A model generated the notes under the pieces. It worked only from the letters and a program-made list of their open reading frames with translations, was not told the DNA's origin and made no database searches. Positions 542 to 48,256 of a stretch of DNA of 48,256 bases are shown here, in pieces (position 1 is the stretch's first letter; the number at the start of each line of letters is the position of its first letter). A program made the position numbers and the translations under genes. The stretch comes from a virus. The stretch covers positions 1 to 48,256 of IMG/VR virus record IMGVR_UViG_3300020020_000051; one strand, given 5' to 3'.

Positions 542-3088
542 TCATAATTCCATCTTTATCATGTGTGCCCATCTATGTAATCCTTTCTTTTGATCCAATA
601 CAAACGCTCCTGGTGATTTTACTTTCTTGCCACTCCAATCTACTGTAGCTTTCTCGTTCCAGATTGTGGGAACTGAAATCTTCAATTCCGCTGGAATGCT
701 TAGCGGTTCCGCTAGCCTTCTTTTCCATACGTCTTGTATCCATATAGGTTCCTCTGCATACTTCTTTAGAATTGCACCCACTGTCTTAGCGACACGAGGC
801 GTGGAAATCGCGACAAGATTGTCATGCACATCAATAGCGATCCGAGCCCTGCCCTTCGGCCAATCGTCATCTTCCATGGATTGATACCAAGTCCTTGTAA
901 CCTTGTCACCAATAGTCGATTGCGGGTAAAACGCAATAATGGATTCCAGTACTGAGTCGTCGAGTTGCTGAACGACTTTAAGTCTACGGCCAAAGGCGTT
1001 CGATATGGATTTCGTCGTACGAAACTGCCTTTCTTCTTGCGTCCACCACCGCTTAATCTCTGGAGTGATTTGATGATAGATGATGAATGATCGTTGGGCT
1101 TGGAAATATGGAAGACCTGTGACTTCCGCGAGCTTCTCCATCTGCATACGATAGTTAAGTCCATGTCTGCACCTTTTCGCTATGTACCTGATTGTTGGTT
1201 TATTGTCTTCGTCCCAATCTGTCTTTGGTACTTGATCATATGGCACCTTAAACATTTCGCTGGCCAACGCTCTGTGTGAGTCATACAGACCGTCGATCCT
1301 AGCCTGAGCATACTGGTCTTTCCATTTCTGAATGTCTGCACGAAAAGAAACAACTTGTGCCTCTGCTTGGGATAGATCAAAATATACAAACACACAACCG
1401 TCGTCGGCGACGTATTGGACACGAGCACGAACCGGTTGATTTTGCATGTTTCCACCGTCACCGTCGAGCAGTTTAGTACTCGAAAGGCGGCCTGGAGCCT
1501 TTGCAACCCCATATTGTTTGTAGTCGCAGCGAAATCTGCCATCTGATGACACTCTAGACTTTGCATACGTCGAGAAGAACTTGTGTTCTTCCTTAAACTT
1601 GTTGAGCGCAACGATCATCTCCTTTGCCAGTGGAGTCGTAGACGGGTCTTTGAGGATAATATTTCTATTCTCTTCATTGGTCGAACGACCCCGTCCTTTG
1701 AGTTTAAGTATGTCGAAAAATAACACCTGTAACTGTTGCCATGAAGATGGCAACGGGTGGTACTCTTCATCGCCTGTAATCTCATGCACAATCCGATAGA
1801 ATTCATTCTCAAAACTCTTAACATCCTGCTCACACTCTTTGATGACGCGCTGCTTGACCACTTCATCTGATCTAACTCCATGAATCGTAGCCTCGGTTAG
1901 ATGCGGTTGAGCACGCATTACATGATCGAAAAAGAAATCATGCATTCCAGAGATCTTCAATTCCCTTGCTAATCGTTCGTGGACTGCGTAGGTAAGAGCG
2001 GTATCTTTACAATTATACTTCCAGTATGTGTCAATATCTCCACCTTCTTTCCAAATTTGAGCATCATCCTTATAAAAAGGGTGCGTGGTATAACATGATA
2101 CAAGGAAAGCCAAACTGTGTGGCAGTCGCGGCAACAAGGTATGATGCGCGAGTAGCGTGTCGAACCAGAGCTTGATCCTGAGTCTTTCACGCATCCCTGT
2201 CCAGTAAGAGTCAAAACCTCCATTTTGCGCGATGATCTTGTGTGAGTCACACAGAGATTGCAACGCGCACAAGATGTCTGCTTCTTGAGATACTGTGAAT
2301 CGGTTTTGGACAGTATCTCGAAGGCTAATGCACATAGCTTTGTGTGGATCGTTACTGAGTCCGTAGCAAGCCGTGTATCCATTAATGGCTTCGATGTCAA
2401 ACGAAACTGGCTTTGTAGATTTCTGTAGATCACGAATAAACGCGAGTACCTCCTTGTACGTCGGATTGATAATCTCCTGGATGTAGTGCATTTTGTAGAC
2501 ATTGCGAATCACCATATCCAGCTTGTGCAGATCGGCTATGAATATTGGCTCAAACCGTGGATCACGTCCATGCATAGCATACGCTGGATTGATCGTACAT
2601 ACGATCCAGCCTTCCTTACCATTCGGTAGAACACTTTCGATAACTGAGCCTCTCCAGTTCAGGATGCCACTCTCGCCAGTCATAGCCCCCAACGCCATGG
2701 AGCCGAGACACACAATGATCTTGGCTTTTGGCAACTGTTCCAATTCCCATTGTAACAGTGACGACCATTGTTCTAACTCGTCTTGGTGGACTTCGTGTCG
2801 TTCGTTGGTCCTTCGACTAAGACTAATTTGTCGTTTGACCACGTTAGTACAATACGCATTGTGTCTTCCAATATGAAATCTTCCAGTGACTCGCCATAAC
2901 ATCTGACCAGAGCCCCCGACAAACGGTCGTCTACTTCTATCGCGAACCTCTGATTCCCCCGGCCCTTCACCAACAAAAACCACTTCGGCATCGATCGGTC
3001 CATCACTAAATACCTCTGTTTTGAGTCCCATCAGATCGGCTTGGTCGCGAAACTCTTGTTCTAGAGTTTCTTTTGTGTGTCGTTTCAT
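542..3088 (-). CDS. DNA polymerase family A with 3'-5' exonuclease and N-terminal UDG-like domain
   Basis: An 848-residue replicative polymerase. Residues 1-195 resemble a family 4 uracil-DNA glycosylase: GEGPGE at 40-45, RPFVGGSGQML around 54-64, and INPAY at 166-170 where the family usually has HPS or HPA. The iron-sulphur cysteines of that family are not visible (KR replaces KCRP near 85), so glycosylase activity is doubtful. The exonuclease motifs are intact: D231-I-E233, N289/D293, and Y358xxxD362. Polymerase motif A is DLSQAE at 571-576, motif B spans about R634 to Y646, and motif C is H755-D756-N757 instead of the usual HDE. UDG-polymerase fusions are known, for example in SPO1. The start overlaps the upstream stop by ATGA. 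Two copies of the 15-bp palindrome lie in frame (LCDSHK 279-284 and LYDSHR 601-606). Confidence 0.96.
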   Translation of the reverse strand: MKRHTKETLEQEFRDQADLMGLKTEVFSDGPIDAEVVFVGEGPGESEVRDRSRRPFVGGSGQMLWRVTGRFHIGRHNAYCTNVVKRQISLSRRTNERHEVHQDELEQWSSLLQWELEQLPKAKIIVCLGSMALGAMTGESGILNWRGSVIESVLPNGKEGWIVCTINPAYAMHGRDPRFEPIFIADLHKLDMVIRNVYKMHYIQEIINPTYKEVLAFIRDLQKSTKPVSFDIEAINGYTACYGLSNDPHKAMCISLRDTVQNRFTVSQEADILCALQSLCDSHKIIAQNGGFDSYWTGMRERLRIKLWFDTLLAHHTLLPRLPHSLAFLVSCYTTHPFYKDDAQIWKEGGDIDTYWKYNCKDTALTYAVHERLARELKISGMHDFFFDHVMRAQPHLTEATIHGVRSDEVVKQRVIKECEQDVKSFENEFYRIVHEITGDEEYHPLPSSWQQLQVLFFDILKLKGRGRSTNEENRNIILKDPSTTPLAKEMIVALNKFKEEHKFFSTYAKSRVSSDGRFRCDYKQYGVAKAPGRLSSTKLLDGDGGNMQNQPVRARVQYVADDGCVFVYFDLSQAEAQVVSFRADIQKWKDQYAQARIDGLYDSHRALASEMFKVPYDQVPKTDWDEDNKPTIRYIAKRCRHGLNYRMQMEKLAEVTGLPYFQAQRSFIIYHQITPEIKRWWTQEERQFRTTKSISNAFGRRLKVVQQLDDSVLESIIAFYPQSTIGDKVTRTWYQSMEDDDWPKGRARIAIDVHDNLVAISTPRVAKTVGAILKKYAEEPIWIQDVWKRRLAEPLSIPAELKISVPTIWNEKATVDWSGKKVKSPGAFVLDQKKGLHRWAHMIKMEL
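1273..1287 (+). repeat. Palindrome copy (exact), in polymerase
   Basis: TGTGTGAGTCATACA. Encodes LYDSHR on the minus strand. Confidence 0.85.
2239..2253 (+). repeat. Palindrome copy (exact), in polymerase
   Basis: TGTGTGAGTCACACA, symmetric. Encodes LCDSHK on the minus strand. Confidence 0.85.
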
Positions 3089-3327
3089 GTTTCGGTTCCT
3101 AGTATAGATTCATTCTCCTGCTCTTTCCAAATCACAAGGCAACCGGGGTGTGCTCGTAGAAACACGACCATTTTCTCAGTACTGGTAAACTCTCGGCTTC
3201 TGCCATTCAGTGGAGTTACAAACCAACACATACTTTGGCGTTCTCTCTTAGCCACGGCGGCACGAGCTAGCCGCCCGCTGTAGATCAGTTGCTTCTTGGA
3301 CGGTTTCATCGTGTCATTCCTTGTCAT
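3085..3327 (-). CDS. Small basic hypothetical protein
   Basis: An 80-residue protein between helicase and polymerase. Both junctions are ATGA overlaps, so the three genes form one translationally coupled unit. The N-terminal 30 residues are Lys/Arg-rich (KPSKKQLIYSGRLARAAVAKRER) and the C-terminal half looks like a small beta-rich fold (WFVTPLNG, VVFLRAHPG, LVIWKEQ). I do not recognise a family. Translation could instead start at Met7. The placement suggests a replisome accessory role, which is inference only. Confidence 0.8.
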   Translation of the reverse strand: MTRNDTMKPSKKQLIYSGRLARAAVAKRERQSMCWFVTPLNGRSREFTSTEKMVVFLRAHPGCLVIWKEQENESILGTET

Positions 3328-4571
3328 ACTTCTGCCCTCCGTAGTGCTAGATACATTGCACGTCTGTCAGCGATTATGATCACATGACCTTTCGCTCTCG
3401 TTATTGCGGTGTAGAAATTTCTACGGTTAAGAAGAAATGCCTGCCCCCTTGAAATGCAATAAATAACAGTCTCAAACTCAGAACCTTGTGCTTTGTGAGT
3501 CGTAATCGCGTACCCCAACTCCAACTGTTTCCTTGGGTCATATTGGATATGCGCTCCATGATACCAACTGAACGTCTTCACTCGCGGGGGTACAATCACA
3601 TGACGATCGCCAAGCAGTAAACCAAATGATCCCTCGTCCTCGTCTACCCAATCAACTGTACCAATCTCACCATTGAACAAATCTAGATTGTAGTCGTTCT
3701 TGATCCAGATAAACTTGTCCTTCGGCTTAATGATAAGCTTGGCTTCCTTTTCGTCATAGCGATCCAATCTAAGACCGCCCTTATACTTATTGAACTTCAA
3801 CTGTAGCGTTGGATTAGTCTTGCTTGTCCCAAAGTTACCACGTCTTGTTGGCATAATGATCTGTCGATTATCTTTTGAGAATTCGGCTGTCGAAAACTCC
3901 GCTAATGTTTTTACTGGCCAATCGCTATACAGTATCTCGAACCTGTCATTCCTAGTAGGAATTGACCCACGTAGTATTCGCATCGCATTGGATACAATGT
4001 GATCCTCACTTCTAAAATTGTGATGTAATTCTATCATCGGTCGCTCTTTTAAAATCTTGATGAAAGGTGGTTCGCCTTCCTCGACCGGAGGCAATTGGTT
4101 GTTGTCACCAAAGAACCTAATCACACCACCATTCGGTAATGCATCTATCAACTGTCTATATAGTGTAGGTGCGACCATGGACGCCTCGTCTATGATTACA
4201 ACTGTTTCATCAAGAGGCTTGAACCTATTTCGCTTAGGTTCGGTTGGATCAATTTGACCGAAATCATCTTCATCCGGCCTTGGAAATTCCAACAATCTAT
4301 GTATCGTCTTGGCTGGTATGCCTGTCAGTTCTTGAATGCGTTTTGCAGCACGTCCGGTCGGAGCGGCCAGGACAACCTTGCGTCCACGTCTGGCAAGTAT
4401 TTCGTATATCTTACCAAGGACCAACGTCTTTCCTGTACCTGCTCCGCCGGTTACGCTTGCGATCAGAGTAGACAAATCACAACATAACATGACGGCGTTC
4501 TCTTGTTCGACACTGAGAATCGTCTCATGCTCCGGCCTTGGAGCCGGTTTGTTCAGCTTAGGTTTGGTCAT
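3324..4571 (-). CDS. SF1 DNA helicase, RecD/Dda-like
   Basis: A 415-residue ATP-dependent DNA helicase of the RecD2/Dda type (superfamily 1B, 5'-3' polarity expected for the family). Visible motifs in order: Walker A TGGAGTGKT (41-49), motif Ia PTGRAAKRI, Walker B VVIIDEAS (about 124-131), motif III FGDNNQLPPV (154-163), motif V ITTHKAQGSEF and motif VI FYTAITRAKGH near the C-terminus. The long N-terminal domain of cellular RecD2 is absent. Start is ATG with AAGGAG upstream. The stop overlaps the next gene (ATGA). Function with the neighbouring polymerase in DNA replication is well supported by context. Confidence 0.95.
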   Translation of the reverse strand: MTKPKLNKPAPRPEHETILSVEQENAVMLCCDLSTLIASVTGGAGTGKTLVLGKIYEILARRGRKVVLAAPTGRAAKRIQELTGIPAKTIHRLLEFPRPDEDDFGQIDPTEPKRNRFKPLDETVVIIDEASMVAPTLYRQLIDALPNGGVIRFFGDNNQLPPVEEGEPPFIKILKERPMIELHHNFRSEDHIVSNAMRILRGSIPTRNDRFEILYSDWPVKTLAEFSTAEFSKDNRQIIMPTRRGNFGTSKTNPTLQLKFNKYKGGLRLDRYDEKEAKLIIKPKDKFIWIKNDYNLDLFNGEIGTVDWVDEDEGSFGLLLGDRHVIVPPRVKTFSWYHGAHIQYDPRKQLELGYAITTHKAQGSEFETVIYCISRGQAFLLNRRNFYTAITRAKGHVIIIADRRAMYLALRRAEV

Positions 4572-5542: not shown

Positions 5543-6406
5543 TCATTTCTTTTTCACCGGCAGTTGCAGCTTCTTTCCACCACCGGCGACCCACTTCTCA
5601 TAAAAGCTTGCAATGGTCATCTGTCCTCTATCCGGCACATCTGCATCATAGCTCAAATAGAACTCCGGTAATCCCTTATCTGTAAACATTCTGGTCTTCA
5701 TGGGCTTTCGCTTTCTTGTCGATCTGAATGCAATGAACCGTTTCTTTTCCGCTGTGGATTCCTGACCCATGAACCATATCTCACTTAGTCGCCATGCTGT
5801 ATTGTTTACAATCTTTCCACCAAGAGACATTCCAATATAGTCAATCACTTCCGATTTGCCGTCCTTGATCCATGTCGGATCATCCTCATGCGCTGTAATG
5901 ATACAATGAACGTTGTGCCTCGCCGTTACTTTCAGAACCTCAGTAAGTATCTGTAGCGTTATCGCATTCCTTCCGCCATACGCAGATATACCAGGAAACT
6001 CCATGGTAGGCTGAAAACCAACGCTCCTACCTATTCCTTTCTCAACAGACTGTTGTAATGCCTTGTACGAAACAGCAGTAGCACTGTCCAAAACAACGCT
6101 CGCAATACCGACATTATTGCGTAGCAAACTATCCAAACCAAAGGGATCGTCGGACTGACCCAATTCACATAGCTGGCGGTGACCAACGCCAGAGTAATCA
6201 GCAACCAAGACATCATCTCTATGCGCCACACTAACATGTTCGTTATCTCCCATTGAAAGCCACAGTTTCTTTCCGGGTGCGGTAGCTGCAAAGGTTGTCT
6301 TGCCGACACCAGATGGTCCCCACATCAGGATCGCCATACGACTGAGCGAACTGAGACCGTGTGTTATGGTTATCGGGCCTAATTTAAGTTCTGGAGCCTT
6401 AGGCAT
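5543..6406 (-). CDS. Sak4-like RecA-fold ATPase (recombination mediator)
   Basis: A 287-residue P-loop ATPase. Walker A is GPSGVGKTT (30-38) and a Walker B-like strand ends at VVLDS (104-108). Further family signs are GGRNAITLQILTEVLK, CIITAHED and a C-terminal FRSTRKRKP segment. Sak4/AAA_24 proteins are phage single-strand annealing or RecA-like recombinases that work with an SSB, which is the next gene. I prefer this ATG over one nine codons upstream because GGAAGG sits 8 bases before it. The ribosome binding site GGAAGGAAAA is complementary over 9 of 10 bases to the loop of the small RNA at 16933-16998. Confidence 0.9.
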   Translation of the reverse strand: MPKAPELKLGPITITHGLSSLSRMAILMWGPSGVGKTTFAATAPGKKLWLSMGDNEHVSVAHRDDVLVADYSGVGHRQLCELGQSDDPFGLDSLLRNNVGIASVVLDSATAVSYKALQQSVEKGIGRSVGFQPTMEFPGISAYGGRNAITLQILTEVLKVTARHNVHCIITAHEDDPTWIKDGKSEVIDYIGMSLGGKIVNNTAWRLSEIWFMGQESTAEKKRFIAFRSTRKRKPMKTRMFTDKGLPEFYLSYDADVPDRGQMTIASFYEKWVAGGGKKLQLPVKKK

Positions 6407-6471
6407 CACATTTTCCTTCCATACAACAACCACAGCACCTGCAACTAAAGATACAACACAAATATGGACAT

Positions 6472-7593
6472 CTAGCCAGACTCACTAACTCCACGTTCGC
6501 TTGGTGTTGGACTGGCGGCGACCATCTGCTTATTGAACGCTTCTTCTCGTCCATCTGGATGATCGCAACAGAATGGCAACAATGAACAGGGACGGAAGTA
6601 TCTGAGACAGGAGTGTGTGTATCTCGGTGCATGTTCCCAGTCCTTCTCATATCTGTCAAATTTTTCACTCATTTCCCGAACCCACTGACCCCATCTATGG
6701 ATCGAATAGGCCGTCCTTTCCTCTGGCTCCAACACACGAATATCATCTGGACCACCAGACGGCTTGATCTTGAGTCCGGTCACTCTAGGTTTCATTACTG
6801 GGAATCCAAACACAGCCGTACTCGCTGCACAATAACCAGTTACTTGGTGCGACATATCAAACGACGCGGCCCATCCGTCACCCAAACGAACACTGGTCTT
6901 GTTCTCGTCGAGATACCACCGATCACGTTCATTCTTTTTCACTAGTCCGTCGATGGTCCCGATGTACCTAACTTGAACTTCATCCTCAAACCGTAGGGTC
7001 ACATCGAAGTGCTGCTCGATCCCGACCTGGCACTTAGGATTGTCCTTGTTCTCCACATACACCGGCCAGTTACTCATTGATCGCAGTCTTTCCTCACAGT
7101 ACTTGATCGCGGCGGATTGCATGTTGCCTAACGTTCTCGTTTGATCACCTGAATCATCGACCCATCCGCTTGTAGCCATGACTGCGAAGCACAACTCTGT
7201 GAGATTTTCAAACTCGTCGTGTGAGTCACACATCTTTAGGCACTGCTGCCACCGCTTCGCTCCGAACAGGCGATTGGCCGTCGCCAGTGCGTGCTGTGGC
7301 AAGTCCTGGATACGAAACAGCTGCCAAATCCTCACTGCCCCAAACACTTCGTGCATCAACTCTCCCGCTTCTAGGGCCATCGACCTTCCCCGTACTGGCC
7401 ACTGTCTCTGCCAACTCACCGTCCCCCACGTCGGACACCGTTCCATCGCCTCCAATCGACTGTTGGAGTTCGGTCGCAGTTTCTTCTGTTGTTCCTTCGT
7501 GGAACTGTCCACCGAAATCAACAGAGGCAAGCTGTGCCTTCCCGGCTGCGCGACGTGCGGTGATGTAATGCTCGATCTCTTTATCGCAGTCAT
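6472..7593 (-). CDS. Cas4/RecB-like PD-(D/E)XK nuclease with Fe-S cysteines
   Basis: A 373-residue exonuclease-type protein. Nuclease signs in order: SRLEAMERC (45-53), GELMH (77-81), GIEQ (191-194), GTIDG (212-216), D229-E230-N-K232, and SHQVTGY with Q250/Y254. Cys53 together with Cys328, Cys335 and Cys341/342 fits the iron-sulphur clamp of AddB and Cas4-like nucleases. It probably resects ends for the neighbouring ATPase/SSB recombination set. The ATG used has GAGG 8 bases upstream but lies inside another reading frame (7226-7741), giving a 368-base overlap; a later start or a frameshift is possible. Residues 121-126 (MCDSHD) are encoded by the palindrome. Confidence 0.88.
   Translation of the reverse strand: MTAIKRSSITSPHVAQPGRHSLPLLISVDSSTKEQQKKLRPNSNSRLEAMERCPTWGTVSWQRQWPVRGRSMALEAGELMHEVFGAVRIWQLFRIQDLPQHALATANRLFGAKRWQQCLKMCDSHDEFENLTELCFAVMATSGWVDDSGDQTRTLGNMQSAAIKYCEERLRSMSNWPVYVENKDNPKCQVGIEQHFDVTLRFEDEVQVRYIGTIDGLVKKNERDRWYLDENKTSVRLGDGWAASFDMSHQVTGYCAASTAVFGFPVMKPRVTGLKIKPSGGPDDIRVLEPEERTAYSIHRWGQWVREMSEKFDRYEKDWEHAPRYTHSCLRYFRPCSLLPFCCDHPDGREEAFNKQMVAASPTPSERGVSESG
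7218..7232 (+). repeat. Palindrome copy (one mismatch), in nuclease
   Basis: CGTGTGAGTCACACA. Encodes MCDSHD in the nuclease and the stop of the overlapping frame. Confidence 0.75.
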
Positions 7594-10887: not shown

Positions 10888-11175
10888 TCAGGTCGCCGAA
10901 ACTGTTGATGCTAGAATATGCATTCGGTCATTCGCCACTCCGAACGTCGTAGGCTTGGACAAAGACCGCCACGGATCGAATGTGCGAAGATCAGAAATAT
11001 TTTCCAATTCCTCTCTGTCTGGCTTATGATACTTCTGTACCACCCACATCTCGTTCGGACAGGATATGATCCTGAACTCGGATTTCTTCGCATGATACCG
11101 TGGAGCACGAACCGTCGCGTGCTTTCGCAACCTCTTTCGTGCCGTCGTCGTCATCAAAAATCTGTTCTGTCTCAT
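10888..11175 (-). CDS. Hypothetical protein
   Basis: A 95-residue protein with a basic N-terminus (ARKRLRKHATVRAPRYHAKK) and a middle strand (MWVVQKYHKPDREELENI). Ribosome binding site GGAAGGA lies upstream of the ATG; this octamer region is complementary to the loop of the small RNA at 16933-16998. Function unknown. Confidence 0.75.
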   Translation of the reverse strand: MRQNRFLMTTTARKRLRKHATVRAPRYHAKKSEFRIISCPNEMWVVQKYHKPDREELENISDLRTFDPWRSLSKPTTFGVANDRMHILASTVSAT

Positions 11176-13750: not shown

Positions 13751-14692
13751 TTACGCAAGCTTTGCGTTGCAAGCGGTAACCAACGCACGCAACTTATCTT
13801 TCATCGCGTCCGTCACATCTTTGATTTTCGCCAACGCGGCGATCATCGCATCAGCGCCAGCAATGACAACCTTTTCCGGCGATGCACCTTGGAAACCACC
13901 AGGACCAGCACCACGCGTATTACTGACCCGATTGATAACCTTGCCATGCGCTTCGGCAGCACGTGCGGCAATGGCGGTAAAGGACGGCTTTTCGGTAAGC
14001 TTGGTTTCGGTTCCCTTGCTATCCTTCACCGTCTGCTTTTCGTTCAACAACACGGAACTGGTTCCGAATTGCTTTTTGACCGCCGGACCAGTCAGGCGAA
14101 GAACGCCGCTGGTCTTATCAATTTCCGCTTTGGTCTTATCGGCAATGATGCCATTGGCGACCATGCAACATTGCTTGAGACGGTGTAGGAAACCGCTACG
14201 CGTGGTTTGCTTTTTCTTATATTCCACCGTATCACGATCCTCGCCGGGTGCCGGAAAGTAAGGGTAAACATCTTTCACGTACTGCACTGTAGCCTTCCCA
14301 TTTGGCAACATTGCAGTTTCGCGATACCCTAAGGCAATGCCGAGCTGATTATTCAGCAAGCCTTGCGCCTTTTTGTCATCGCTAAAAGCGTGCGATAAGT
14401 TGATTGACGCTTCATTAGTCGCGGCTTTGACGATTGCCATCGTCAATTTGCTTTGCAAGTCATACCGCTTAGATGCAGCCGCGGCCAACATGGCCTTGCC
14501 TTTATCCGTGTCCGCATCGGTCGCGGCAAGCTCCCGGATTAACGCAACGCCAATGTCTTTTGACATGGCCTTGGCATTGATCTTAGGAACCGCAAGAGCC
14601 GTTCCCAAGCTTTCACCTTCGTCTGTCGTTCCCTTGGCTTTCGCCTTGGGCGCTGGTGTTACCGGAGCAACCGGTTTCGCATTCTTTGCCAT
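13751..14692 (-). CDS. Ala/Lys-rich hypothetical phage protein
   Basis: A 313-residue protein with a Pro/Ala/Lys low-complexity N-terminus (about 1-25) followed by a mostly helical body. It has recognisable segments NNQLGIALGYRETAMLP, YPYFPAPGEDRD and a C-terminal helix-rich domain. I recall similar uncharacterised proteins in podoviruses but cannot name a function. It is the largest gene of the middle part of the leftward arm and is followed by a strong palindromic structure. A DNA-binding or early structural role is possible. Confidence 0.82.
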   Translation of the reverse strand: MAKNAKPVAPVTPAPKAKAKGTTDEGESLGTALAVPKINAKAMSKDIGVALIRELAATDADTDKGKAMLAAAASKRYDLQSKLTMAIVKAATNEASINLSHAFSDDKKAQGLLNNQLGIALGYRETAMLPNGKATVQYVKDVYPYFPAPGEDRDTVEYKKKQTTRSGFLHRLKQCCMVANGIIADKTKAEIDKTSGVLRLTGPAVKKQFGTSSVLLNEKQTVKDSKGTETKLTEKPSFTAIAARAAEAHGKVINRVSNTRGAGPGGFQGASPEKVVIAGADAMIAALAKIKDVTDAMKDKLRALVTACNAKLA

Positions 14693-14741
14693 TACGTTTT
14701 CCTTTCACGCTAGTTAGGCAACGGTATGTCGCCTAATCGAT

Positions 14742-14895: not shown

Positions 14896-15129
14896 CTAGC
14901 CACGGTTCCGCTTAGACACATAACCAGACTTGGCGATGCATTCCTTGCGAAAGGTCTGCCACGCGACCATGCCCTGACCCTTCTCAACGGTCTTGCGCGA
15001 CTCACTGGCACGCCATTCGACACCGCAAGCCTTTAGGGCAGTGCGATAGTCAACAGGAGTCTGTGCGAGCGCGGCTCCATGCGCCATGCCAGCCAGCACC
15101 ATAGTCAAGACCATAAGAAAACGCTGCAT
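14896..15129 (-). CDS. Small secreted KACG..EWR protein of bacterial type
   Basis: A 77-residue protein with a signal peptide (hydrophobic MQRFLMVLTMVLAGMAHGAA, likely cleaved after ALA) and a mature part with ALKACGVEWRASESRKTV, AWQTFRKECIAKSGY. This KACG.EWR..WQ.FRK.C pattern is common in small periplasmic proteins of Rhizobiales such as Bradyrhizobium. Function unknown. GGAAGGA precedes the ATG. Two Cys could form a disulphide. It looks like a host-derived moron gene, perhaps acting in the host envelope. Confidence 0.78.
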   Translation of the reverse strand: MQRFLMVLTMVLAGMAHGAALAQTPVDYRTALKACGVEWRASESRKTVEKGQGMVAWQTFRKECIAKSGYVSKRNRG

Positions 15130-15215
15130 TGTCTTATCCTTCCGATAATCAAGCCGCTTGATTGCGGCTCGGGCAAATTGCCTAACGCTAGGCGTTCTCT
15201 GACAACGCCTAGCAA

Positions 15216-15824: not shown

Positions 15825-16099
15825 TGTGCCTTCCTTTCGCTTTGCCAAATTGGCAAACGCGCGATCTTTCAAATGATCGCGCAATGAATAAAATATGCTC
15901 TTTCTCTTACCTAGACCTTTCGCGGTGATGGCTGGTCACAAAGGACACGGCATGGTCCGCACACGGTTATCTAGGTTTTGCCTGCTCGGTTAACAGGTCT
16001 TTTGGGTATTACCCTGCTTTGGACGCGAGCCGGTATTCCGGTCACCGCGAAGAGCAGGAAGCCCCATGCGCCGTAGCGCGCGCCTTGTGGCGCCAGCCG
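15825..16099 (-). other. Leader region with two hairpins, no gene seen
   Basis: Just ahead of the zinc-ribbon operon lie a 17-bp palindrome TTTGCCAAATTGGCAAA (15841-15857) and a perfect 8-bp stem GCGCGATC / GATCGCGC (15859-15866 with 15875-15882). Both could fold in the leader RNA. The rest (15890-16099) holds nothing I can support as coding. Confidence 0.45.
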
Positions 16100-16300
16100 T
16101 CAATCCATGCGATTTCCTTTCATGCATTCCAAAATACATTTCCCCATATCCATGTCAACCCGCTGTATGACTTGCACAGCAAATATATTTCTCTTGACAT
16201 TTCGCCTATGTTTTGCCAGCGCACGCGATCCCATGTCGCGACTATATTCCTTCGCCGCAGGCACGGAATATAGCCGCTCTATAGCCGGGTCATCATACAC
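16100..16300 (-). CDS. Possible small hypothetical protein
   Basis: A 66-residue frame (MYDDPAIERLYSVPAAKEYS at its start, ending CILECMKGNRMD). The ribosome binding site AGGA is about 17 bases away, which is poor. It lies directly downstream of a promoter-like sequence at 16336-16365. A palindrome variant with one core change (GACTT) lies inside it. Could be coding or leader. Confidence 0.35.
   Translation of the reverse strand: MYDDPAIERLYSVPAAKEYSRDMGSRALAKHRRNVKRNIFAVQVIQRVDMDMGKCILECMKGNRMD
16164..16178 (-). repeat. Palindrome variant (core change)
   Basis: TGTATGACTTGCACA; the only copy seen with an altered GASTC core. Confidence 0.55.
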
Positions 16301-16781: not shown

Positions 16782-16835
16782 GAGGCGAAACAAGGTCGCC
16801 TCTATTCCGTGCCTTCGGCGATGAATAGAGGCGAC
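16782..16835. other. Strong hairpin with an alternative pairing
   Basis: GTCGCCTCTATTC (16795-16807) pairs perfectly with GAATAGAGGCGAC (16823-16835) across 15 bases. The left arm can instead pair upstream: GAGGCGA (16782-16788) with TCGCCTC (16796-16802). The two structures exclude each other, as in attenuators, though no T-run follows. Confidence 0.55.
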
Positions 16836-16897: not shown

Positions 16898-16932
16898 GCA
16901 GAAATAGTCGCGTAAGGATGCGCTCCGCGCAT

Positions 16933-16961
16933 AAAAAAAAGGCCCCGTGATGAGCGGAGCC
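16933..16961 (-). terminator. Leftward intrinsic terminator
   Basis: On the minus strand GGCTCCG and CGGGGCC form a 7-bp stem (one G-T pair) with a 7-base loop followed by eight T. A further small palindrome ATGCGCTCCGCGCAT (16918-16932) comes next. It lies only 40-110 bases after the two leftward promoters, so it would end short transcripts unless read through. Confidence 0.8.
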
Positions 16962-16998
16962 AGTTAAGACGAGTCGTTACGGGAAGGAAAGCGTAACG
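16933..16998 (-). ncRNA. Candidate 66-nt small RNA with anti-Shine-Dalgarno loop
   Basis: The expected start point of the promoter at 17005-17033 is 16998. The RNA would open with a perfect 7-bp hairpin (CGTTACG 16998-16992 with CGTAACG 16981-16975). Its 10-base loop reads CUUUCCUUCC. A short single-stranded stretch and the terminator hairpin with eight U follow. The loop is complementary to GGAAGGA-type ribosome binding sites of leftward genes, 9 of 10 bases at 6406. Alphaproteobacterial cuckoo RNAs use loops of this kind. Promoter, hairpin and terminator are seen; function is inferred. Confidence 0.6.
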
Positions 16999-17004
16999 GT
17001 ATGT

Positions 17005-17033
17005 AGTATATATTGTGTTACTATGTATGTCAA
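17005..17033 (-). promoter_or_regulatory. Strong leftward sigma-70-type promoter
   Basis: TTGACA (17033-17028), 17-base spacer, TATACT (17010-17005, five of six). It is the best promoter in the window. It fires directly into the small RNA and terminator at 16933-16998. Confidence 0.75.
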
Positions 17034-17105: not shown

Positions 17106-17177
17106 GAGACTAAAATCCAGCCTGTGGATAACTCATACATAGTAATACAGGGTTGATAGCATCGCCAAAAAGAGGGG

Positions 17178-46646: not shown

Positions 46647-48256
46647 CTATGCAGTCCTTTCTTTTGATCTAGTACAAACGTTCCAGGAGTCTTCACTTTC
46701 TTACCACTCCAATCCACTGTAGCTTTCTCGTTCCAGATTGTGGGAACTGAAATTTTCAATTCCGCTGGAATGCTCAGTGGTTCCGCTGACCTTTTCTTCC
46801 ATGCGTCTTGTATCCATATTGGTTCCTCCGCATACTTCTTTAGAATTGCACCCACTGTCTTAGCGACGCGAGGCGTGGAAATCGCGACAAGATTGTCATG
46901 CACATCAATAGCGATCCTAGCCCTGCCCTTCGGCCAATTGTCATCTTCCATGGATTGATACCAAGACTTTGTAACCTTGTCACCAATAGTCGATTGTGGG
47001 TAAAATGCAATAATGGACTCCAATACTGAGTCGTCGAGTTGCTGAACGACTTTAAGTCTACGGCCAAAGGCGTTCGATATGGATTTCGTCGCACGGAATT
47101 CCCTTTCTTCTTGCGTCCACCACCGCTTAATCTCTGGAGTGATTTGATGATAGATGATGAATGATCGTTGTGCTTGGAAATATGGAAGACCTGTGACTTC
47201 CGCAAGCTTTTCCATCTGCATACGATAGTTAAGTCCATGTCTACACCTTTTCGCTATATATCTGATTGTTGGCTTGTTGTCTTCGTCCCAATCCGTCTTT
47301 GGTACTTGATCATATGGCACCTTAAACATTTCGCTGGCCAAGGCTCTGTGCGAGTCATACAGACCGTCGATCCTAGCCTGAGCATACTGGTCTTTCCATT
47401 TCTGGATGTCTGCGCGAAAAGAAACAACTTGTGCCTCTGCTTGGGATAGATCAAAATATACAAATACACAACCTTCGTCGGCAACGTATTGGACGCGAGC
47501 ACGAACTGGCTGATTTTGCATGTTTCCACCGTCACCGTCGAGCAGCTTAGTACTCGAAAGACGGCCTGGAGCCTTTGCAACCCCGTATTGTTTATAGTCA
47601 CAGCGAAATCTGCCATCTGATGACACTCTAGATTTCGCATACGTTGAAAAGAACTTGTGTTCTTCCTTAAACTTGTTGAGCGCAACGATCATCTCCTTCG
47701 CCAGCGGAGTCGTAGATGGGTCTTTGAGGATGATATTTCTATTCTCTTCATTGGTTGAGCGGCCACGTCCTTTGAGTTTGAGTATGTCAAAAAAGAACAC
47801 CTGTAACTGTTGCCATGAAGACGGCAACGGATAGTATTCTTCATCGCCGGTAATTTCATGGACGATCCTATAGAACTCATTCTCAAAACGTTTAACATCC
47901 TGCTCACACTCTTTGATAACCCGTTGCTTAACCACTTCATCTGATCTAACCCCATGGATTGTGGCTTCGACTAGATGCGATTGAGCACGCATCACATGAC
48001 CAAAAAAGAACTCGTGCATTCCTGATGTTTTCAATTCTCTTGCTAATCGCTCATGGACTGCGTAGGTGAGAGCGGCATCTTTACAGTTATACTTCCAGTA
48101 CGTATCAATATCTCCACCCTCTTTCCAAGTTTGAGCATCATCCTTATAAAAAGGGTGCGTGGTATAACATGATACAAGGAAAGCCAAACTGTGTGGCAGT
48201 CGCGGCAACAAGGTATGATGCGCGAGTAGCGTGTCGAACCAGAGCTTGATCCTGAG
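46616..48256 (-). CDS. DNA polymerase family A, second copy, 5' truncated by window end
   Basis: The frame is open to the window edge and covers the end of the exonuclease domain and the whole polymerase domain. Over the last 531 residues I count about 22 differences from the left copy, all substitutions. Motif A DLSQAE, motif B and HDN are kept. No frameshift or stop interrupts it, so it is not a decayed copy. The stop TGA lies in a palindrome-like copy here, whereas the left copy ends TTA TGA without one. Confidence 0.93.
   Translation of the reverse strand, partial: LRIKLWFDTLLAHHTLLPRLPHSLAFLVSCYTTHPFYKDDAQTWKEGGDIDTYWKYNCKDAALTYAVHERLARELKTSGMHEFFFGHVMRAQSHLVEATIHGVRSDEVVKQRVIKECEQDVKRFENEFYRIVHEITGDEEYYPLPSSWQQLQVFFFDILKLKGRGRSTNEENRNIILKDPSTTPLAKEMIVALNKFKEEHKFFSTYAKSRVSSDGRFRCDYKQYGVAKAPGRLSSTKLLDGDGGNMQNQPVRARVQYVADEGCVFVYFDLSQAEAQVVSFRADIQKWKDQYAQARIDGLYDSHRALASEMFKVPYDQVPKTDWDEDNKPTIRYIAKRCRHGLNYRMQMEKLAEVTGLPYFQAQRSFIIYHQITPEIKRWWTQEEREFRATKSISNAFGRRLKVVQQLDDSVLESIIAFYPQSTIGDKVTKSWYQSMEDDNWPKGRARIAIDVHDNLVAISTPRVAKTVGAILKKYAEEPIWIQDAWKKRSAEPLSIPAELKISVPTIWNEKATVDWSGKKVKTPGTFVLDQKKGLHRWAHMVKMEL
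47347..47361 (+). repeat. Palindrome copy (exact), in second polymerase
   Basis: TGTGCGAGTCATACA. Encodes the same LYDSHR as the left copy despite one silent base change. Confidence 0.85.

Follow-up and report, generated by a model that had tools for sequence, protein, structure and literature searches.

A conserved promoter-terminator unit in a phage genome and its predicted antisense RNA against early gene starts

Between the leftward and rightward gene sets of the virus record IMGVR_UViG_3300020020_000051 lies, on the (-) strand, a small unit that we interpret, with moderate confidence and from sequence evidence, as encoding an independently transcribed phage antisense RNA (sRNA) that would act in trans to block the translation of early leftward genes. 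We call the window the whole stretch of DNA analysed, i.e., the 48,256 bases of this record (GC 48%). Our comparisons support the view that the unit is a separate and conserved small RNA locus with complementarity to the starts of leftward (early/replication) genes. The original prediction for this DNA had proposed an RNA with an anti-Shine-Dalgarno (anti-SD) loop, a reading that turned out to be partly right.

Genomic context

The coordinates of all the features discussed are collected in Table 1, in which gene starts are the output of a simple caller. The record exceeds one genome length, with positions ~591-2182 repeated at 46665-48256 (~86-96% identity) and the polymerase gene present in both copies of this ~1.6-kb terminal repeat. 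Since the end of the record (~1.6 kb) repeats its start, the unit genome is of ~46.07 kb and the overlap comes from a variant. Searches with the terminase and the 313-aa protein retrieved zero relatives among 84,980 species genomes (bacterial genome contigs) and nothing useful among phage records, in which phage terminases matched only distantly. The 313-aa protein gave no family match and no fold match, and its structure model was of low confidence (pLDDT 60).

Table 1. Coordinates of the genes, predicted RNA elements and candidate target sites in the window.
Feature	Position	Strand or direction	Remarks
Family-A DNA polymerase gene	542-3088	leftward	
SF1-type helicase gene	3324-4571	leftward	
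Sak4-like ATPase gene	5543-6406 or 5543-6433	leftward (-)	
Predicted window-only target site GGAAGGAAAAUGUGAUG	6404-6420	(-)	SD to start codon of Sak4-like gene, start 6406
Exonuclease gene	6472-7593	leftward	
TGTRYGASTCRYACA sites, examples	8231, 8970, 9946, 12895, 17824, 28258, 41964		
Predicted target gene, 313 aa	13751-14692	(-)	conserved in phage group
Predicted target site, best conserved, AAGGAAAACGUAAUGG	14689-14704	(-)	from SD to start codon of the 313-aa gene
Predicted target gene, 77 aa	14896-15129	(-)	apparent signal peptide
Predicted second target site UUAUCGGAAGGA	15137-15148	(-)	SD region of gene 14896-15129
Predicted sRNA of 65-68 nt	16933-17000	(-)	fold z and unique promoter-terminator unit
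Terminator T8 (U8) run	16940-16933	(-)	
Intrinsic terminator	16961-16941	(-)	GGCTCCG-CTCATCA-CGGGGCC
Hairpin 3' stem	16981-16975	(-)	CGTAACG
Hairpin loop	16991-16982	(-)	CTTTCCTTCC
Hairpin 5' stem	16998-16992	(-)	CGTTACG
Predicted antisense element, 5' arm and loop	16982-16999	(-)	CCGUUACGCUUUCCUUCC; 16-pair and 15-pair runs at two starts
Promoter P2 of the sRNA	17005-17033	(-)	TTGACA-17-TATACT, sigma-70-type, 11/12 consensus
P2 -10 hexamer	17010-17005	(-)	TATACT
P2 -35 hexamer	17033-17028	(-)	TTGACA, spacer 17
Upstream tandem promoter P1	17077-17105	(-), leftward	TTGACA-17-TATCTT, TG before second hexamer
129-aa protein gene	start 17266	rightward	first of rightward set
Terminase genes	starts 17873, 19500	rightward	after 129-aa gene

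A compact promoter-hairpin-terminator unit

The near-consensus promoter claimed originally was confirmed, with 11 of 12 consensus positions in P2, and the 7-bp hairpin and the terminator with eight U were found as described, on the (-) strand. Upstream of P2 there is another leftward promoter in tandem with it, P1, which the original prediction did not list. The length of 66 nt, for an RNA starting exactly at the hairpin, holds if transcription begins at C16998, while a purine start (A17000 or G16997) gives 65-68 nt. The predicted fold (-19.4 kcal/mol, with z = -3.8 relative to dinucleotide-shuffled sequences) consists of a single hairpin, whose loop carries the pyrimidine motif CUUUCCUUCC, and the terminator. 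When the genome was scanned for units of this class, defined by a promoter with at least 11/12 matches and a strong terminator with at least 7 T within 130 nt, only this one was recovered, and none appeared in 200 simulated genomes (first-order Markov).

A search of Rfam 15 at the gathering score gave zero matches in the window and zero in eight related loci. Sub-threshold Rfam matches had E values of at least 0.56, those overlapping the sRNA being on the opposite strand, and were discarded. Directly after the U run of the terminator there is another hairpin, ATGCGC-GGA-GCGCAT (16912-16932, (-) strand), which is identical in 3/3 close genomes.

Conservation in related phages

The comparison included two close relatives and one distant one, and more distant phages were recruited with a profile of the neighbouring 129-aa protein. 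One of the close relatives is a single contig that appears under four labels (L003, L006, L012 and L039 are one record); it has ~84-88% DNA identity to the window over the region, with a letter-identical promoter and an exact loop. In L007/L008, at 80% amino acid level in the 129-aa neighbour, both hexamers and C-TTCCTTCC are kept. The P2 hexamers are identical in L006 and L007, both of which also conserve P1, and CGTTACGC-TTCCTTCC is kept in 3/3 close genomes.

The most strictly kept helix of the sRNA is the terminator, with 100% of the stem cells paired across the three close genomes; in L007 one of its pairs has changed on both sides, from C-G to U-A, and the loop is shortened. The 5' hairpin of L007 has lost 2/7 pairs by changes located only on the 3' arm, which reads CATAACA, and its 5' arm and loop are the same as in the window except for one U. 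A broken 3' arm next to an intact 5' arm and loop is what would be expected if the antisense sequence, rather than the stem, were selected. The 5' stem is thus less well kept than the terminator.

Farther away, L032 (63% at amino acid level in the neighbour) has, at the equivalent position, tandem promoters (TTGACA-17-TATAGT at the place of P2 and TTGACA-17-TATAAG at that of P1) together with a hairpin and a terminator of the window's type. A single TTGACA promoter is found at the P1 position in L035, L036 and L038, followed in the last two by a short, GC-rich predicted RNA whose end is formed by a hairpin and a U run; in L035 no terminator was seen after the promoter. The scan upstream of the 313-aa gene recovered no such unit in farther relatives (at most ~43% identity in the 313-aa protein). 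Other matches of the pattern scan to the sRNA in viral contigs, with neither promoter nor terminator, were attributed to chance.

Complementarity to gene starts

The loop complementarities that had been quoted (9 at 6406, 8 at 11175 and 7 at 15129) are correct. The loop alone, however, does about as well as other pyrimidine loops of equal composition, and what stands of the proposal is a separate, conserved small RNA unit with complementarity to leftward gene starts. Over 63 starts, permuted C/U loops reach a mean duplex energy that is just as good (P 0.63), and contiguous complements of at least 7 and at least 8 (three starts) have P values of 0.05 and 0.036 against the same permutations. In the window RNA the longest canonical anti-SD piece is 5 nt. 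In L039, which has an identical loop, the Sak4 start reads GTGGAGGCGAGTT-ATG, so the 6406 site is lost, and the 11175 orthologue is also devoid of its site, while the 15129 and 14692 sites are retained. The two lost sites, 6406 and 11175, are those proposed as the best targets.

The significant predicted antisense element is the 5' arm plus the loop, not the loop alone. Together they pair at 16/17 positions with the 6406 start and at 15/16 with the 14692 start, the next-best start reaching 11, and both duplexes extend from the SD through the AUG in a shared register. In tests devised after inspection of the data, shuffling the 5' 33 nt of the sRNA against 60 starts gave P 0.007 for the best start and P 0.003 for the second, with 0/400 shuffles attaining both; when the loop was fixed and only the flanks were shuffled the values were 0.026, 0.000 and 0/500, respectively. 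The site at 14692 is paired at 15/16 positions in the window, 15/16 in L013 and 12/13 in L039, where it can alternatively pair around a 1-nt bulge, and its run summed over the three genomes was attained in 0/400 and 0/500 joint shuffles (P 0.005 for the minimum run). The 15129 site is paired at 11/12 positions in three genomes, and its duplex energy is the lowest among the conserved genes (P 0.013). When only the 5' 20 nt were used, duplex energy again pointed to 14692 as the best conserved gene (P 0.054); over all genes in two genomes duplex energy was not significant. A further long match in L039, GGAAAGGAAAGTGAATG at the 11649 orthologue, suggests that secondary targets turn over. The fold prediction for the window has the 5' arm paired, so it would have to open for the antisense pairing to occur.

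The L032 sRNA differs in sequence from that of the window. Its best match over 11 starts (15/16, loop UAAUUAAGCAUUCCC against GGGAGUGCUUAGCUAU) falls where translation of a 93-aa protein begins, the orthologue of the 15129 gene product (P 0.040 when all starts are considered, 0.003 when only this one is). This RNA also carries CCUCCUUU, a canonical anti-SD piece (P 0.008), and pairs with starts in general better than shuffles do (0/300); the 14692 orthologue shows no special complementarity to it. The P values of the L035 leader against the two targets (0.055 and 0.075) were not taken as support. Among these few genomes, pairing is kept at 14692 in the two close relatives, matched at the 15129 orthologue in L032 and lost at 6406.

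Alternative interpretations

Tandem promoters and a terminator located upstream of ~1.1 kb of non-coding DNA would also fit an attenuator. P1 and P2 could then give a short aborted transcript with a role in transcription (attenuation or antitermination of the leftward transcription, or shielding of the origin-like region downstream) and with no target in trans. The terminator being the best kept helix is consistent with this, and so is the P1 of L035, which runs into leftward ORFs with no terminator seen. A leader or insulator of this kind does not predict, however, matches of the 5' arm and loop to gene starts beyond those of shuffles; there is another promoter-like site for the leftward genes at 16158, and reading of the alignment revealed no conserved alternative antiterminator pairing. 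We consider this explanation unlikely. One candidate antiterminator, pairing the 5' arm of the terminator with the downstream GCGGAGC hairpin, was rejected as it is not kept in L006.

Quite unlikely, we think, is that the loop alone serves as a general anti-SD sequence for many phage or host mRNAs. The sequence CUUUCCUUCC with its complements of at least 8 at three starts, and the L032 RNA with its CCUCCUUU and its general affinity for starts, would speak for it, but the mean duplex energy in the window is like that of permuted loops, the 6406 and 11175 targets are not conserved and the window RNA lacks the canonical anti-SD. An RNA that primes, activates or controls leftward replication beside a putative origin is the explanation to which we give least credit, and we regard it as improbable. 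The neighbourhood does look origin-like, with a DnaA-box-like TTATCCACA and a pair of outward-facing hairpins, and lambda OOP RNA was formerly considered a primer (PMC12197685); yet the strong intrinsic terminator would stop the RNA before these hairpins, the origin is itself putative and the complementarity to the starts would be left unexplained. A trans-acting antisense sRNA would account for this complementarity, and it is the interpretation that we retain.

Other elements near the unit

The DnaA-box-like TTATCCACA (17119-17127, (-) strand) is kept in L003, L007 and L009, and TTGTGGATAAGGGGGG is found in L033 and L035 elsewhere in the region. The outward-facing hairpins, at 16797-16821 (plus sense) and 16252-16276 (minus sense), have a conserved loop core, CCGTGCC(T)xCGGCGA, and different stems; similar pairs exist in L032 and L033, and one or more copies in L035 and L036. 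Paired single-strand initiation sites are found in the RSF1010 origin, and these hairpins may be an equivalent pair in an origin of this phage. A ~180-nt element resembling a non-coding RNA (15903-16081, (-) strand; fold z = -2.9) lies immediately upstream of the leftward genes. Comparison of three genomes shows three base pairs in which both sides have changed, and the element has no Rfam match.

A 15-bp palindrome-like site, TGTRYGASTCRYACA, is scattered over the whole window in 45 copies with up to two mismatches (~1 per 0.9 kb), and a three-mismatch scan gave 103 matches against 13 expected. Of the 45, 28 are within 120 nt upstream of called gene starts, a zone that makes up 16% of the genome, the median distance being 25 nt; in 21 of the 28 it is the coding strand that reads GAGTC. 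The density is of 1.1-1.4 per kb in L039, L012, L032 and L042. This looks like a genome-wide operator/stoperator array, and we know of no phage with as many such sites.

Comparison with known RNAs

Phage regulatory sRNAs are known as a kind (PMC12197685), and that of the window has no match to any Rfam family. Among the features of trans-acting phage antisense sRNAs it has, at the sequence level, its own promoter and terminator, and a complementarity to starts that goes beyond chance by runs and more weakly by duplex energy. VpdS of phage VP882 and PreS of lambda are phage trans-acting sRNAs (reviewed in PMC12197685), and the likeness is one of kind: a short phage-encoded RNA that acts, here as a prediction, in trans on phage and/or host mRNAs. 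Both of them act with Hfq, and PreS acts on the host dnaN, whereas the best predicted targets here are early genes of the phage itself. The sar RNA of P22, which interferes with translation initiation, and OOP of lambda are phage antisense RNAs (PMC12197685) that lower phage gene expression, as the window sRNA would do. They are encoded opposite their targets, whereas those predicted here are ~1.8-10.6 kb away, so the pairing would be imperfect and in trans.

A likeness to the cuckoo RNAs had also been proposed. The alpha-r14/cuckoo family is defined by the anti-SD motif CCUCCUCCC in unpaired regions and by three hairpins, and in its member NfeR1 each of the three hairpins carries CCUCCUCCC (PMC10746234). 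NfeR1 and the window sRNA would have in common a C/U-rich loop for pairing with SD regions and a mode of silencing in which translation initiation is blocked. However, the latter has one hairpin plus the terminator and another motif (CUUUCCUUCC in its loop, CCUCCUCCC being absent), and its significant pairing includes the 5' arm of the stem and the start codon. The absent motif, the different hairpin layout and the lack of an Rfam match led us to discard membership in this family.

Implications for phage biology

The first part of the sRNA mirrors the starts of a few early virus genes, and for this reason it probably switches off their translation. Transcription of the RNA, its binding, the repression and the timing of these events are what we infer. 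Transcription from the unit's strong promoter would give an RNA of 65-68 nt that stops at the intrinsic terminator. The exposed pyrimidine loop would make the first contact with purine-rich SD sequences, after which the duplex would lengthen along the 5' arm to 15-17 nt, over the SD and the start codon. Of the small number of early leftward genes targeted in this way, 14692 (313 aa) and its neighbour 15129 (a small, apparently exported protein) would be the steadiest partners, with Sak4 as an additional one in the phage of the window. Such a duplex would block binding of the 30S subunit, and with it the sRNA would lower the translation of part of the leftward programme.

A more speculative view, about which we are doubtful, is that this is a fast-evolving sRNA locus, kept at one place next to a putative origin, whose antisense element changes across phages in step with the starts of the same two neighbouring early genes, that it acts as a dedicated brake on one early module, and that the L032 RNA now imitates the 3' end of the 16S rRNA.

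Targets are known for few phage sRNAs, and phages of enterobacteria and Vibrio account for most of these. The unit described here is compact and conserved in position, and it predicts a 16-nt duplex over the SD and the AUG of 14692 that could be tested without the natural host.
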